Positions 12,046-55,263 of a stretch of 64,000 nt of DNA are shown in pieces. Location of the stretch: NCBI GenBank assembly GCA_021324675.1, contig JAJPIR010000084.1, forward strand, positions 1 through 64,000, given 5' to 3'. The translations under genes and the position numbers were made by a program. The notes beneath the pieces were generated by a model that was not told the DNA's origin, ran no database searches, and saw nothing but the letters and a program-made list of their open reading frames with translations. Source of the DNA: Actinomycetota bacterium. GTDB lineage: Bacteria > Actinomycetota > Actinomycetes > Mycobacteriales > Pseudonocardiaceae. The first letter of the stretch is position 1. The number at the start of each line of letters is the position of its first letter.

Positions 12046-12780
12046 ATGAGCGCACCTACCGCCGGGACTATCCGGCTTTCCGATCCGTCCGAGTTGATCG
12101 CCGCCGTTCCACATCTACTCGGTTTTCATCCGCACAATTCAGTGGTGGTCTTGGCACTGCATGGAAGAAGCTTGGGGCTGACCTTGCGCGCCGATGTGGT
12201 CCCGCCCGATCAGGCGCCGCAACTGGCCGAGCAGCTGCTGCGGCCGATCACGAGGTCCCGGCCCAGTGGTATCGCTCTGGTCGTTATCGGGGGCAACGTC
12301 AGTGCCAACAGTGGCGACGATGATGTGCCGCATCGCGGGCTGGTGGCTGCACTTGCTCGCGCGCTCGATCGCGCGGGGTTGCCGGTGATGCTCGCCGCGT
12401 GGACCACCGAGGTAAAGCGTGGAGCGCCATGGCGCTGTTATGACGATTCGCTCTGCGCTGGAACGGTGGCTGATCCCGCAAGTAGCCCGTTAGCGGCCGC
12501 TACAGTTGCGGCTGGTGCCGTGACGTTTAGTAGCCGACAGGAAATGGTCGATTTGCTCGCCACACACGACCCCGAAGCATTGCGACGTCGTGTTGCGCTG
12601 CTGGACGCGGCCGACGCTGAACATCCGATGAGCGCTCGGACGGTAAAGCAGCGACTTGCGCGGTTAAGGCAATTGCACGAAGCAGCTGCCGCAGGGGAGC
12701 TGGTGTTAAGTGACAGCGTCATTGCCGAGGTCGCCTCCGCACTATGCGACCACCGGGTCCGGGATGCCTGCCTGCCCTGG
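12046..12780 (+). pseudogene. DUF4192 protein, 5' portion, interrupted by element insertion
   Basis: RLSDPSELIAAVPHLLGFHPHNSVVVLALHGRSLGLTLRADV...VRDACLPW; continues in frame at 54949. Confidence 0.85.
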
Positions 12781-12797
12781 CGTTTAGTTGTGTACCT
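12749..12797 (+). other. attL
   Basis: TGCCCTGG (12773-12780) shared with attR; element-side TGTACCT arm 12791-12797. Confidence 0.85.
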
Positions 12798-12805
12798 TGA
12801 AGTCC

Positions 12806-14233
12806 ATGCGCCGAGCTGCGATCTACTGCCGGATCAGTGACGACCGGGAAGGAGCACTGCTAGGGGTCGCGCGTCAAGAAGCAGACTGTCGTGAACGGGC
12901 TACGAGGCTGGGCTGGGTAGTCGCTGGTCTGTACGTGGACAACGACCTATCGGCGTTCTCAGGGAAGACTCGTCCTGAGTACCGCAGGATGCTTGATGAT
13001 CTCCGTTCAGGTCTCATCGATGCAGTGCTTGCTTGGCACACTGATCGGCTTCACCGCTCGCCCCGTGAGCTTGAAGAGTTCATCGACATCTGCGAGAACG
13101 CCAGGGTTGGTGTCGAGACGGTGAAGGCTGGGCCAGTTGATCTCTCGACACCAGCAGGGCGAGCCGTTGCGCGAACGCTTGGAGCTTGGGCTCGCTATGA
13201 GAGCGAACACAAGGCAGAGCGGAGCCGTCGCAAGGCCTTGGAGTTGGCACAGACGGGCAAGCCGTCTGGTGGAGGTCGACCCTTTGGTTACGAAGAAGAT
13301 CGCATCACGGTGCGTGAAAATGAAGCTGAAGTCATCAGGGAATGCGTGCGGCGTTTGCTTGCGGGTGAAGCGCTACGAAGCCTAACACGCGACCTCAATA
13401 GTCGGGGAATTGTCACGTCTGCTGGAGGAGAATGGTCAACCCAGACGCTCAAGCGGGTGCTTGCCTCGGGCAGAATTTCAGGGCAACGAGATCATCAACC
13501 ACGGTCACTCACCCAAACGAAACGACACTTGATCAGAGAGATTGTGGCAGATGCAGTGTGGCCGGCGATCATTACGAAGGAGGAGACCGCAAGGGTTCGC
13601 GCGCTGCTTTTGAATCCTGAGCGGAACTCACTGGCTGCTCGCGCGAGACGGTACCTGCTGAGTGGGATCTTGCGATGTGCCTATTGTCGCGGATCTCTGT
13701 GTGGTCGGCCAACGGGCGATGGTCGGCTACGGTACTTGTGTAAGAAAGAGCCTGGCAGCAACCGGTGTGGCAAGATTTTTATTGTTGCTTCTCCTACCGA
13801 TGACTGCGTGACGGACATGGTGAAGATGGTGTTGCAGTCACCGAAGCTTGCGGAGATACTCCAAGCGAACGGCCGAAACTCAGGTGACGAGTCAGCGCTG
13901 GAGCAGATAGCCGCTGATGAGAAGAAGCTTGAAGAGCTCGCTGGAGACTACGCGACTGGTCTGATCACGCGCAAAGAATGGCTCTATGCACGTGAGTTGC
14001 TTGAAGGCCGCCTAGAGGCCGCTCGGAAACGTCTGAGTAGTAACAGCCAGATTGCGGCACTTGAGGGTCTGTACGGCGATTCTGTGCCGTTTGGCGAGAT
14101 GTGGAAAGGGTTTTCTATTGATCGTCGGCGAGCAGTGATAGCGGCCCTTTTTGAGCGGATCATCGTGCATCCGGGAGTGCAGGGACGTAATAGGTTCGAT
14201 TCGCAGCGACTTGAGCCAGTTTGGCGTGTATAA
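12806..14233 (+). CDS. large serine recombinase (integrase)
   Basis: MRRAAIYCRISDDREG, catalytic N-domain, recombinase and zinc ribbon (CAYCRGSL...YLCKKEPGSNRCG) domains, coiled coil. Confidence 0.95.
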   Translation: MRRAAIYCRISDDREGALLGVARQEADCRERATRLGWVVAGLYVDNDLSAFSGKTRPEYRRMLDDLRSGLIDAVLAWHTDRLHRSPRELEEFIDICENARVGVETVKAGPVDLSTPAGRAVARTLGAWARYESEHKAERSRRKALELAQTGKPSGGGRPFGYEEDRITVRENEAEVIRECVRRLLAGEALRSLTRDLNSRGIVTSAGGEWSTQTLKRVLASGRISGQRDHQPRSLTQTKRHLIREIVADAVWPAIITKEETARVRALLLNPERNSLAARARRYLLSGILRCAYCRGSLCGRPTGDGRLRYLCKKEPGSNRCGKIFIVASPTDDCVTDMVKMVLQSPKLAEILQANGRNSGDESALEQIAADEKKLEELAGDYATGLITRKEWLYARELLEGRLEAARKRLSSNSQIAALEGLYGDSVPFGEMWKGFSIDRRRAVIAALFERIIVHPGVQGRNRFDSQRLEPVWRV

Positions 14234-14700: not shown

Positions 14701-14771
14701 ATGCAACAAATGCAACACTATGCCTCTTGACAAATGAGCAACAAAACCGTTAAGCTAATAGTTAGCTTAGT
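14701..14771 (+). promoter_or_regulatory. par operon promoter/operator
   Basis: contains decamer tgcaacacta (14711-14720), identical to the start of the downstream octamer array, then TTGACA-like region before xis-like ORF. Confidence 0.5.
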
Positions 14772-14960
14772 ATGAAAGCCTTTCTCAATGCTTCTGAAGT
14801 TGCGAAATTGCTCAACGTTGACCGTGCAACAGTTTCTCGTTGGTTGCACAAAGGGCTCATCCCTCGCGCCGTTCGTCTTCAGGGGAAACAGCAGTGGCGT
14901 ATCCCGATTAGCGCGTATGAGGAGCTTGTGAAGCAACAAGAGCAGTATGAGAGTCATTAG
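14772..14960 (+). CDS. excisionase-like HTH DNA-binding protein
   Basis: MKAFLNASEVAKLLNVDRATVSRWLHKGLIPRAVRLQGKQQWRIPISAYEEL. Confidence 0.85.
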   Translation: MKAFLNASEVAKLLNVDRATVSRWLHKGLIPRAVRLQGKQQWRIPISAYEELVKQQEQYESH

Positions 14961-15722: not shown

Positions 15723-16061
15723 ATGAAGACACCACGAGTGCATGATTTTGATCCGGATGCTGCTGGGCGGCAATTACAGAGTCCTCTTGAGGGTATGCCG
15801 ACCATCGAAAAGCCACGGCAGCAGCCACAAGCACCAGCCGTGCAGCATGCTGAACCAAATAATGGCCAACAAGCAAAACAAGCTGCGGCAAAGTCAACGC
15901 GGCGATACGTTCGGCGAACGTTTGATTACTTTGAAGACCAGATTGAGTATCTAACGCGGGTTTCATTAGAAGAGCGGTTAGCTGGAAACAACGTGACGAT
16001 GGCTTCAATGCTCAGGGAAGCTTTGGACCGCTATATCTCTGAAAAGACTTCCAAGAAATAA
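15723..16061 (+). CDS. RHH-like centromere-binding partition protein
   Basis: disordered N-terminus, C-terminal RRYVRRTFDYFEDQIEYLTRVSLEERLAGNNVTMASMLREALDRYIS, 5 nt after parA. Confidence 0.75.
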   Translation: MKTPRVHDFDPDAAGRQLQSPLEGMPTIEKPRQQPQAPAVQHAEPNNGQQAKQAAAKSTRRYVRRTFDYFEDQIEYLTRVSLEERLAGNNVTMASMLREALDRYISEKTSKK

Positions 16062-16072
16062 CTCAAACCTTG

Positions 16073-16224
16073 CAACACTATCACGCTACTACACTCGTAC
16101 ACTATCACACTACTCAACCATCACACTACGACACCATTACACCATGACACTACCACACTATGACACCATAACACCATGACACTCATACACTTATACACTT
16201 ATACACTATCACACTTAGACACTA
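16073..16224 (+). repeat. 19 contiguous 8-bp repeats (NNACACYN), candidate parS centromere
   Basis: caACACTA tcACGCTA ctACACTC gtACACTA tcACACTA ctCAACCA tcACACTA cgACACCA ttACACCA tgACACTA ccACACTA tgACACCA taACACCA tgACACTC atACACTT atACACTT atACACTA tcACACTT agACACTA. Confidence 0.9.
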
Positions 16225-16574
16225 CTACGTGTATACAGATTCATTCTAAAGTGCTTAGATATGTTCTATCGAGCAGACGAGACAGCCGCCGTTTTCCCAC
16301 AAAGGGTTTGCTCATAAAAACGGACTAGCCTACCTGTGATCGACGTGACCGAGTGACTGACCGAAGCAGTTGACTATAAGGCTACCGCTGAGACACGCGG
16401 AGAGTATGAGAGACCCATCCCGTCCTTGGACTTGTCAACAAAATTTTTTTCCGGACGCTTGCGTCGGGAAGAAAGCGAAGGGAAGGAAACGAGAGAACAA
16501 GAGAGCAGGCAATCGCAAAAACGAGCCCCTGGGGGTTGAGGGGGGAGGGGCTTGTCGTGACGACGAATACGAGA

Positions 16575-34819: not shown

Positions 34820-35731
34820 TTAGAGAGCATTTTCCTGTAGCTGCCGGTCCATCTCTTCCCGGGCAAGGCCCACATAGATCGTCGTTGTCTTCAAACTGGC
34901 ATGGCCCAAAACCTCTTTGATGACCTGAAGCCCTGTGCCCAGCTTGACACTTTGGGTCGCGAAGGTATGCCGCAAGGAGTGCACCGACGCGCCGGTGATC
35001 CCGGCGTCTTGGAGGTACTTGGCGATGACCAGCTCAATGGACCGGGGGCCCATGCCCCGGTGGAATTTGGTCTGAAAGACCGCATCGTCCTCAGCATCAG
35101 GCGGACGAACGGCAAGGTAGGCCTTCAGCGCCTTGCAGGCTTTCCAGTTGAGCGTGACGGTTCGTTGTCGGCGTCCCTTGCCCTGTACCCGAACACTACC
35201 CACACACCCGGGCTCTCTAGAGATACGCGCCGGTAGCTCTATGTCTGACAGCTGAAGCTTGGACACCTCAGACAGCCGAAGCCCCGTTTGAAGCAAGAGC
35301 TCGATGATGGCGCTGTCGCGGACTTCATGCCGGACTGCTGCAAGCAGGCGCTTGTACTCCTGCTCAGTGAGGTACCGCGGCTGGTTCCACTCCCGCTCAG
35401 GCGGCACCAGCTTGCCTGCCGGGTTGCCAACACGGTGGCCTGCATCCTCAAGGAAGAAGAAGAACGAGCGGATGGCCGCCACTTTGCGCCGACGCGTGCT
35501 GCCGGTCAGCTGCTGCTGGTCAAGGAAGGCCAGGAAGCCCTCGAGGTGTGTCCGCGTCACCGCCTGGACCGTTGAGATCCCTGCCGCAGTTGTCAGGTAC
35601 TCGCACAGCTGGCCAAGGTCGGTAAGGTACTCCTTTCGCGTGCGAGGTGCCAAATTCCGACCAGCTAAGAAAACGTCTTTATAAGCGATGAGGGCATCGT
35701 CCAATGTAACAGGAGTGTCGACACTGTTCAT
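34820..35731 (-). CDS. tyrosine recombinase (XerC/D-like)
   Basis: LLLQTGLRLSEVSKLQ, SVHSLRHTFATQSVKLG, LGHASLKTTTIYVGL. Confidence 0.92.
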   Translation of the reverse strand: MNSVDTPVTLDDALIAYKDVFLAGRNLAPRTRKEYLTDLGQLCEYLTTAAGISTVQAVTRTHLEGFLAFLDQQQLTGSTRRRKVAAIRSFFFFLEDAGHRVGNPAGKLVPPEREWNQPRYLTEQEYKRLLAAVRHEVRDSAIIELLLQTGLRLSEVSKLQLSDIELPARISREPGCVGSVRVQGKGRRQRTVTLNWKACKALKAYLAVRPPDAEDDAVFQTKFHRGMGPRSIELVIAKYLQDAGITGASVHSLRHTFATQSVKLGTGLQVIKEVLGHASLKTTTIYVGLAREEMDRQLQENAL

Positions 35732-35908: not shown

Positions 35909-36658
35909 CTATTCCTTAAAGCAGGTGAGAATCAAGAAGGGGCCGATGATAGATTCATCCGTTCCGACGAAGGAATCTTTTAAGGAGGTAGGCGTGTCTG
36001 TTGCGCGCACTTCGAAGCCTACGGCCTGTAGCACATCTTGGTAATCATCGAGGGTCCAATAATGGTCTTCGACTTCTACTACGCCTTCCGGTGTCGTGAT
36101 GACGCATCGCACCCGGGAGCCGCTGGAAAGGTGTTCAATAGACCCAGTTCGTGGGAAGCTCTTATAGACATGGCCAATTGACTCTGGATTCGCGGTCATG
36201 ATAAAGAACTGTGAACTTGGTTTCAATACCCGATAGATCTCGGCACTAGCGACCACCATATCGCGCTTACTTGGTATCTCGGTATAGACGTTACAGCTGA
36301 TTGCACCATCCATAGCCTCATTCGCTACCGGTAGGGTCCGACCAATCAGTGCGTACGCTACCCGAGAAACATGCTGTTTGTTTGCGTGTTTCACCATAGT
36401 GAAGTTGTGGTCGACGCCTACTACAAAAGCTGCGCCGAGGTTGCGAAGGAAAAGGGAGCTTCGTCCTGCGCCGGCTCCGAAGTCCAGCCACCGTGTACCG
36501 GTGAGATCTCCCAACTTCTCGGCAAGGGCATCGAATCCGATTTCATAGGAGGTGCCTGCAATTTCCAGACTACCGTATGCGTCAGCATCTTCTGTCGAGT
36601 AGGTGAAGGCGTCACTACCGTGAGGGCCATTTTGCTGTCTCATGGGACACTGCCGCAT
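35909..36658 (-). CDS. class I SAM methyltransferase (copy 1)
   Basis: WLDFGAGAGRSSLFLRNLG; paralogue at 41649. Confidence 0.8.
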   Translation of the reverse strand: MRQCPMRQQNGPHGSDAFTYSTEDADAYGSLEIAGTSYEIGFDALAEKLGDLTGTRWLDFGAGAGRSSLFLRNLGAAFVVGVDHNFTMVKHANKQHVSRVAYALIGRTLPVANEAMDGAISCNVYTEIPSKRDMVVASAEIYRVLKPSSQFFIMTANPESIGHVYKSFPRTGSIEHLSSGSRVRCVITTPEGVVEVEDHYWTLDDYQDVLQAVGFEVRATDTPTSLKDSFVGTDESIIGPFLILTCFKE

Positions 36659-41648: not shown

Positions 41649-42407
41649 TTATTCGGGAGATTCCTTAAAACAGGTGAGAATCAAGAAGGGGCCGATGATA
41701 GACTCATCCGTTCCGACGAAGGAATCTTTTAAGGAGGTAGGCGTGTCCGCTGCGCGCACTTCGAAGCCTACGGCCTGTAGCACATCTTGGTAATCATCGA
41801 GGGTCCAATAATGGTCTTCGACTTCTACTACGCGTTCCGGTGTCGTGATGACGCATCGCACCCGGGAGCCGCTGGAAAGGTGTTCAACTGACCCGATCCG
41901 CGTGAAGCTCTTATACATCCGACCAATTGATTTTGGATTCGCAGCCATTAGAAAAAACCGTGCACCTGGTTTCAACACGCGATAGATTTCCGCGCTTACA
42001 ATGGTCATAGCACGCTTACTCGGTATCTCGGTGTAGACACTACAGCTGATCGCACCATCCATTGACTCATTCGCGACCGGGAGGGTTTGGCCAATGAGTG
42101 CGTACGCGACCTTAGGAACACGCTGCAATTTTGCCCGCTGCACCATAGTGTAATTGTGGTCGACACCAAACACTAAAGTTGCCCCGAGGCTCCGAAGAAA
42201 AAGGGAACTGCGTCCTGCGCCCGCGCCGAAGTCCAGCCACCGTGTACCGGTGAGATCTCCCAACTTCTCGGCAAGGGCATCGAATCCGATTTCATAGGAG
42301 GTGCCTGCAATTTCCAGACTACCGTATGCATCCGCATCCTGTGTTAAGTACGTGAAGGCGTCACTACCGTGAGGGCCATTTTGCTGTCTCATGGGACGCT
42401 GCCGCAT
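41649..42407 (-). CDS. class I SAM methyltransferase (copy 2)
   Basis: near-identical N- and C-terminal blocks to copy 1. Confidence 0.8.
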   Translation of the reverse strand: MRQRPMRQQNGPHGSDAFTYLTQDADAYGSLEIAGTSYEIGFDALAEKLGDLTGTRWLDFGAGAGRSSLFLRSLGATLVFGVDHNYTMVQRAKLQRVPKVAYALIGQTLPVANESMDGAISCSVYTEIPSKRAMTIVSAEIYRVLKPGARFFLMAANPKSIGRMYKSFTRIGSVEHLSSGSRVRCVITTPERVVEVEDHYWTLDDYQDVLQAVGFEVRAADTPTSLKDSFVGTDESIIGPFLILTCFKESPE

Positions 42408-54917: not shown

Positions 54918-54970
54918 AGGTACATAGCTGCACACCATGGTGCCCTGGTGCTGCGGTCCTGGTGCGGTTG
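54918..54970 (+). other. attR
   Basis: AGGTACA arm 54918-54924, TGCCCTGG 54941-54948, then DUF4192 sequence. Confidence 0.85.
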
Positions 54971-55263
54971 CCGCCGAGCGGCTGTGGCTGGCCCTGGTGC
55001 AAGCTACTCCTGCACCTGAGCGAGCTGAACCGGCGGCGCTGCTGGCGCTGACCGCATATTTACGTGGTGATGGTGCCTTAGCGGGCGTCGCCTTGGATGC
55101 TGCCCAGCAGGCCTGCCCCCTTCACTCATTGTCCGCATTGCTGCGGGCTGCACTGGACGGGGGATTGCCACCGGAGCTGCTGCGCGGGGTCGCAAGGGAC
55201 GCCGCGGCCGCGTTGCGGCGGCAGCGTAAGTCGCGCACCCAACGACCGCAACGCCACCGGTGA
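54949..55263 (+). pseudogene. DUF4192 protein, 3' portion
   Basis: CCGPGAVAAERLWLALVQATPAPERAEPAALLALTAYLRGDGALAGVALDAAQQACPLHSLSALLRAALDGGLPPELLRG. Confidence 0.85.

Follow-up and report, generated by a model that had tools for sequence, protein, structure and literature searches.

A tandem octamer array downstream of a ParA-type operon as the putative centromere of an integrated actinobacterial element

Incompatibility of plasmids and ICEs is set by the match between a binding protein and the centromere that it recognises, and the origin of new centromere specificities is, to our knowledge, poorly understood. The question raised by the locus described here is what a long run of contiguous 8-bp repeats does beside a ParA-type gene. 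The locus lies in a stretch of 64,000 nucleotides (contig JAJPIR010000084.1 of an actinobacterial genome assigned to the Pseudonocardiaceae), referred to below as the window. With a probability of roughly 0.8, the repeats serve as centromere in a putative ParA partition system resembling type Ib, located on an integrative and conjugative (or mobilisable) element.

The octamer array and its operon

The length of the array corresponds exactly to 19 x 8 bp, and its reading as 19 contiguous units, made in the initial annotation, was borne out by column counts, lag-8 identity and shuffle scores. Over core columns 3-8, the 19 units have A in 18, C in 18, A in 18, C in 19, a pyrimidine in 19 and A in 14 cases, with positions 1 and 2 variable; the main exception is unit 6 (CTCAACCA), the poorest match to the consensus. 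The lag-8 self-identity of the array was 0.674 (144 bp) compared to 0.417 at most anywhere else in the window, and its tandem-octamer information score was 67.9, whereas 200 Markov shuffles averaged 11.9 and did not exceed 19.3 (shuffle-based p-values given in this work are bounded by the 40-200 shuffles employed). When a strict four-octamer pattern was run over the whole 5.63-Mb genome, the array was the sole match, with 10 overlapping forward hits; the reverse strand gave 0 hits, as did a reversed control pattern. The similarity between units was 5.3-5.7 of 8 at all spacings from 1 to 7, without decay with distance; hence the array did not arise by recent slippage, as a young minisatellite would, or by recent duplication. 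The core is retained while the leading dinucleotide drifts. An Rfam search at and after the array found nothing apart from one chance hit far below the cut-off.

Table 1. Features of the partition locus and of its host element in the window.
Feature	Position	Strand	Basis or remark
Host DUF4192 gene, 5' part; ORF extends slightly into the element	12046..12840	+	Pfam DUF4192 positions 1-245 of 321
Large serine recombinase, left end of the element	12788..14233	+	Pfam Resolvase, Recombinase
TGCAAC-N3-TGCAAC direct repeat, 9-bp step, presumed HTH_17 site	14702..14716	+	Just 5' of the -35 box
TTGACA, presumed -35 box of the operon promoter	14727..14732	+	Conserved in an alignment of five loci
62-aa HTH_17 protein, excisionase/BldC-like	14772..14960	+	Pfam HTH_17 and NCBIfam TIGR01764 'excise' above cut-offs
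ParA-type Walker ATPase, 256 aa	14947..15717	+	Pfam AAA_31, E 6e-40; ParA/Soj structures
112-aa presumed centromere-binding protein	15723..16061	+	Conserved N-terminal tail, disordered linker, RHH-like C-terminal domain
Octamer array, presumed centromere	16073..16224	+	19 contiguous units, consensus NNACACYA
Probable DUF4192 gene, 3' part, far side of the element	54928..55263	+	Open frame read by eye

As shown in Table 1, three overlapping or close genes form an operon 5' of the array, which lies downstream of the ParA gene and of a small RHH-like gene, as had been annotated; the first gene of the operon, encoding the HTH_17 protein, was absent from that annotation. The HTH_BldC profile also matches this protein, below its cut-off. 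The AAA_31 domain of ParA starts at residue 1 and is not preceded by an HTH domain, a trait of type Ib systems.

For the 112-aa protein there was no Pfam hit and no hit with an RHH profile, and a tblastn search of 72,556 plasmids returned no match. Its predicted model has a disordered N-terminal half and helices at residues 69-86 and 93-110, in a monomer of low confidence (pLDDT 64). The RHH_1/RHH_3 profiles gave weak, sub-threshold hits to the binding proteins of relatives, which together with the monomer models suggest that the protein is presumably RHH-like. Foldseek searches with two low-confidence monomer models were uninformative (3no7, relevant to the pCXC100 ParB considered below, was one of five insignificant hits). 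A candidate homologue in locus L009, the sole weak hit among 395 genomes of the window's class, was judged spurious because no partition gene is found there.

The initial annotation also proposed that the decamer TGCAACACTA serves as an operator for autoregulation by the RHH protein. Both claimed copies of the decamer are present in the window (14711-14720 and 16071-16080), but the operator role is not supported. The promoter region contains a single good octamer (score 10.1), its best pair reaches 9.4 compared to an array mean of 19.6, no comparable tandem pair is present, and around 50 single octamers of similar score are found elsewhere in the window. In the window and in loci L010, L011 and L105, TGCAAC-N3-TGCAAC precedes TTGACA at the same place with small changes, whereas their octamers differ, and the operator claim was set aside because of this conservation. 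The simplest reading of these sequences is that the HTH_17 protein, and not the RHH-like protein, owns the TGCAAC site, for which a 9-bp repeat of the BldC/excisionase type would be the better fit; BldC, on which the small MerR-like HTH proteins are modelled, binds head-to-tail to 9-bp direct repeats with consensus AATTXXXX(C) (PMC5859096). The HTH_17 protein is a probable regulator of the operon. Lag-9 signals were detected upstream in several relatives. The HTH_17 promoters of L013 (4760-4790), L014 (4760-4790) and L012 (4751-4790) carry AATTCCCCA-like 9-bp direct repeats that resemble the published BldC consensus.

The operon and the array are part of an integrated element, about 42 kb in length, by which a DUF4192 gene is interrupted. 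Conjugation-type ATPases, a Replic_Relax protein and an SSB-like gene are encoded in the element, and its G+C content is about 0.51-0.60 over most of its length, compared to mostly 0.60-0.69 in the flanks. The genes on either side, DUF4192 among them, suggest that the surrounding chromosome is actinobacterial. When short direct repeats were sought at the ends of the element, just a doubtful 10-mer was found, which does not define an att site. Besides the serine recombinase, the element contains a tyrosine recombinase gene (34820-35731), and two near-identical genes with a GAGAGRSS-type methyltransferase-like motif (35909-36658 and 41649-42407) point to a duplication inside it.

Related cassettes and exchange of binding domain and octamers

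A one-genome-per-species scan and whole-genome searches yielded 14 further cassettes, mostly from Chloroflexota and mostly in metagenome-assembled genomes, with ParA proteins 48-79% identical to that of the window; the next ParA relatives reach only about 36%. No strong ParA relatives were detected in the other 396 genomes searched of the window's phylum, nor in the plasmid, phage and viral collections searched. The binding-protein gene follows ParA directly in all 15 loci. When the binding-protein gene and the following DNA were scanned for lags (800 bp), short-period DNA within or just after this gene exceeded the shuffles in every locus (15/15; p<=0.01 each), with 8 as the best lag in 10 of the 15; in four (L103, L104, L106 and L107) the period was not clearly 8 bp. 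The ParA genes of the same loci gave no 8-bp signal in the lag scan. Among 67 loci with a distant ParA, none had a significant 8-bp array downstream, and seven showed another period. A missing array in orthologous elements had been named in advance as evidence against the annotation; short-period arrays were found in 14 of 14 relatives, and the earlier reading, in which tandem repeats form the centromere of a partition locus of the ParA/RHH type, is supported.

The octamers differ in sequence among the loci. Grouped by inspection, the models were NNYGAACR for L017, CATGACNG-like units for L012, RYRYCRYG-like units for L011, L013-L016 and L018, and GTACC-type units for L105, in which 15 of them lie upstream of the operon. 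A period of 13 was seen in L106 and L107 and of 12/13 in L104, these three going with a sub-group of RHH-type domains, and the signal in L103 was weak.

The N-terminal 32 or so residues (M[KR]xPRPExFDP...) can be identified in the binding proteins of all cassettes, and a profile comparison confirmed that the two main groups have this N-terminal tail in common (probability 95.4, E 2e-8), whereas the C-terminal domains differ between groups. Locus L011 illustrates how these parts combine. Its ParA groups with those of the window, L010 and L105 (76-80% identity, clade support 100/99), whereas its C-terminal domain is 51-60% identical to the domains of L013-L016/L018 and 17% identical to that of the window. 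The L011 array has 35-57% of its 7-mers in common with the arrays of L013-L016/L018, compared to 17% with the window, 2% with L010 and 10% with L105. Mean 7-mer sharing was 49% inside a group versus 6% outside. By these comparisons, the octamer sequence tracks the predicted DNA-binding domain of the binding protein and not ParA, and the joint change of domain and array in L011 agrees with the prediction for an array bound by that domain.

In 13 of the 14 relatives, an array also lies within the binding-protein gene, in the part coding for the linker (residues 42-82, approximately); the window's own gene has no intragenic array. The intragenic arrays and those outside the gene have words in common in all 13 loci tested. 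Their shared 7-mers exceeded those of every same-length control window from ParA and binding-protein genes (13/13), with p about 0.001; this is the lowest value that the test allows, and it leans optimistic, as the compared regions were picked by inspection. The linkers encoded by the arrays are low-complexity peptides, such as SRQHDGMTASHHDSTPSRHHDGMTA. These data suggest, tentatively and at somewhat less than even odds, that the binding domain is a cassette placed between its own arrays, the first within the linker-coding stretch and the second 3' of the stop codon, so that the centromere would be partly coding and recombination at the edges could swap domain and centromere together, creating a new incompatibility group with the same ParA; the window would have kept the 3' array only.

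A structured non-coding region with a promoter-like box is found at the array edge in L013 (6376-6700), L014 (6291-6610), L015 (6359-6670), L016 (3156-3470), L018 (4441-4730) and L012 (6304-6620). A 7-pair hairpin of this region is kept in 6/6 sequences, with compensatory changes at five pairs, and an Rfam search of the region in these six relatives gave no match. In the window, a CCGTTTT..AAAACGG pair is present at 16286-16327, which may or may not be homologous to the relatives' hairpin.

A putative partition mechanism and its alternatives

For the window we infer a mechanism in which dimers of the 112-aa RHH-like protein would cover the 19 octamers in a contiguous row, each dimer occupying 8 bp, while their flexible, conserved N-terminal tails would engage ParA and stimulate its ATPase. 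The excised circular element would then be spread over the nucleoid and so would not be lost at division. Such a system would matter once the element is excised; excision and extrachromosomal maintenance are assumed here. The HTH_17 protein would probably act at the TGCAAC repeats to control the operon and, perhaps, excision. Across the family, a change of DNA-binding domain would go together with a corresponding change of octamers, the N-terminal tail and ParA being retained.

The array could instead be a transcription operator, through which the RHH-like protein silences a promoter or RNA gene just downstream, partition being secondary or absent. RHH partition proteins commonly double as repressors (PMC5016525), and in L012-L016 and L018 the promoter-like box and the structured region start right at the array edge. 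Nevertheless, an operator needs fewer sites than 19 contiguous ones plus extra intragenic arrays, no clear promoter lies directly 3' of the window array, and the strict adjacency of ParA and the binding protein in 15/15 loci also argues against this reading, which we regard as unlikely.

A place is left, at much longer odds, for iterons bound by an initiator protein at the element's replication origin. Tandem short repeats beside plasmid-like genes, with the Replic_Relax and SSB-like genes in the element, would agree with this, but no initiator gene is adjacent, the array sequence follows the RHH-type domain, and the 8-bp unit falls well below the usual length of iterons. Hardly credible, finally, is a neutral minisatellite produced by slippage: ACACYA octamer runs do occur in 25 unrelated viral contigs without a nearby ParA, but these are mostly near-perfect copies, whereas in the window the leading dinucleotide is free to vary, the core is kept and similarity is constant with distance, and in every relative the corresponding place is taken by an array of different sequence. 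Three of the viral runs (L113 at 6732, L114 at 7881 and L118, on the reverse strand) have variable leading dinucleotides like those of the window array, with no ParA nearby.

Under the preferred reading of the array as a centromere, the family provides natural pairs with a near-identical ParA (76-80%) and different binding domains and octamers, and in most members the repeats are encoded in the linker of their presumed binding protein. It would also extend ParA-type partition to Chloroflexota elements and to one in an actinobacterial-type host; a limited literature search combining Chloroflexota, ICE, ParA and partition found nothing.

Comparison with known partition systems

The initial annotation regarded the 8-bp period as distinct and the 7-bp delta-omega system as the closest known logic. 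Neither view held, as the parH site of TP228 is nearer. With the same scripts, a TP228-type parFGH locus (L108, ParG identical over 76 aa), with units such as ACTCATAA, ACTCAAAC and ACTCATAT upstream of parF, gave period 8 (score 28.4, null maximum 25.8; weaker in the lag scan, p 0.09), and 8-bp spacing is therefore a known logic. In the published description, parH consists of tetramer boxes with AT-rich spacers (PMC7308502). Both systems have a ParA without an HTH domain and an 8-bp framework, and the small binding protein of the window may resemble that of TP228 in its predicted flexible N-terminal tail and putative C-terminal RHH domain. They differ in that parH is a degenerate site 5' of the operon with units in both orientations, whereas the window array is downstream, in a single orientation and more regular. 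The two ParA proteins are 27% identical over a stretch of 144 residues, and hhalign gave a probability of 1.7 for homology of the 112-aa protein to ParG. As the binding protein is no ParG homologue by sequence, the window locus is best described, by analogy, as one that may work like TP228 rather than one that is TP228.

Contiguous short repeats are also found in the delta-omega-parS system of pSM19035, where they are coated by RHH dimers. That system has a 7-bp period at several promoters, whereas the window carries a single array, of 8-bp period, downstream of its operon; in our analysis, a pSM19035-type locus showed period 7 with a score below the null maximum and p 0.005 in the lag scan. 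At least four contiguous repeats are needed in pSM19035 (PMC9499535), so that 19 units would be ample.

Type Ib centromeres usually lie upstream of the operon (PMC5016525). The window has the short-repeat array at the locus that is typical of this type, but downstream; L105 has one upstream. By description, ParB of pCXC100 (Leifsonia) is comparable, as an RHH binding protein from an actinobacterial plasmid that employs direct repeats only (PMC5016525). Active partition on an integrative and conjugative element has a precedent in SrpMRC of SXT/R391 (PMC4489591), although that system is of the actin-like ParM type with four 13-bp repeats.

With respect to the intragenic arrays, the nearest case is ParA-ParT-parS of SCP2, in which the gene for the binding protein likewise contains the centromere site (PMC12260392). 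In SCP2, however, parT contains a single 18-bp parS site, an inverted repeat, and encodes a ParB-like protein, whereas in the family described here the intragenic site is a tandem array that encodes the linker of an RHH-like protein. We infer that a partition family with dual-coding arrays and a joint swap of DNA-binding domain and centromere looks new.
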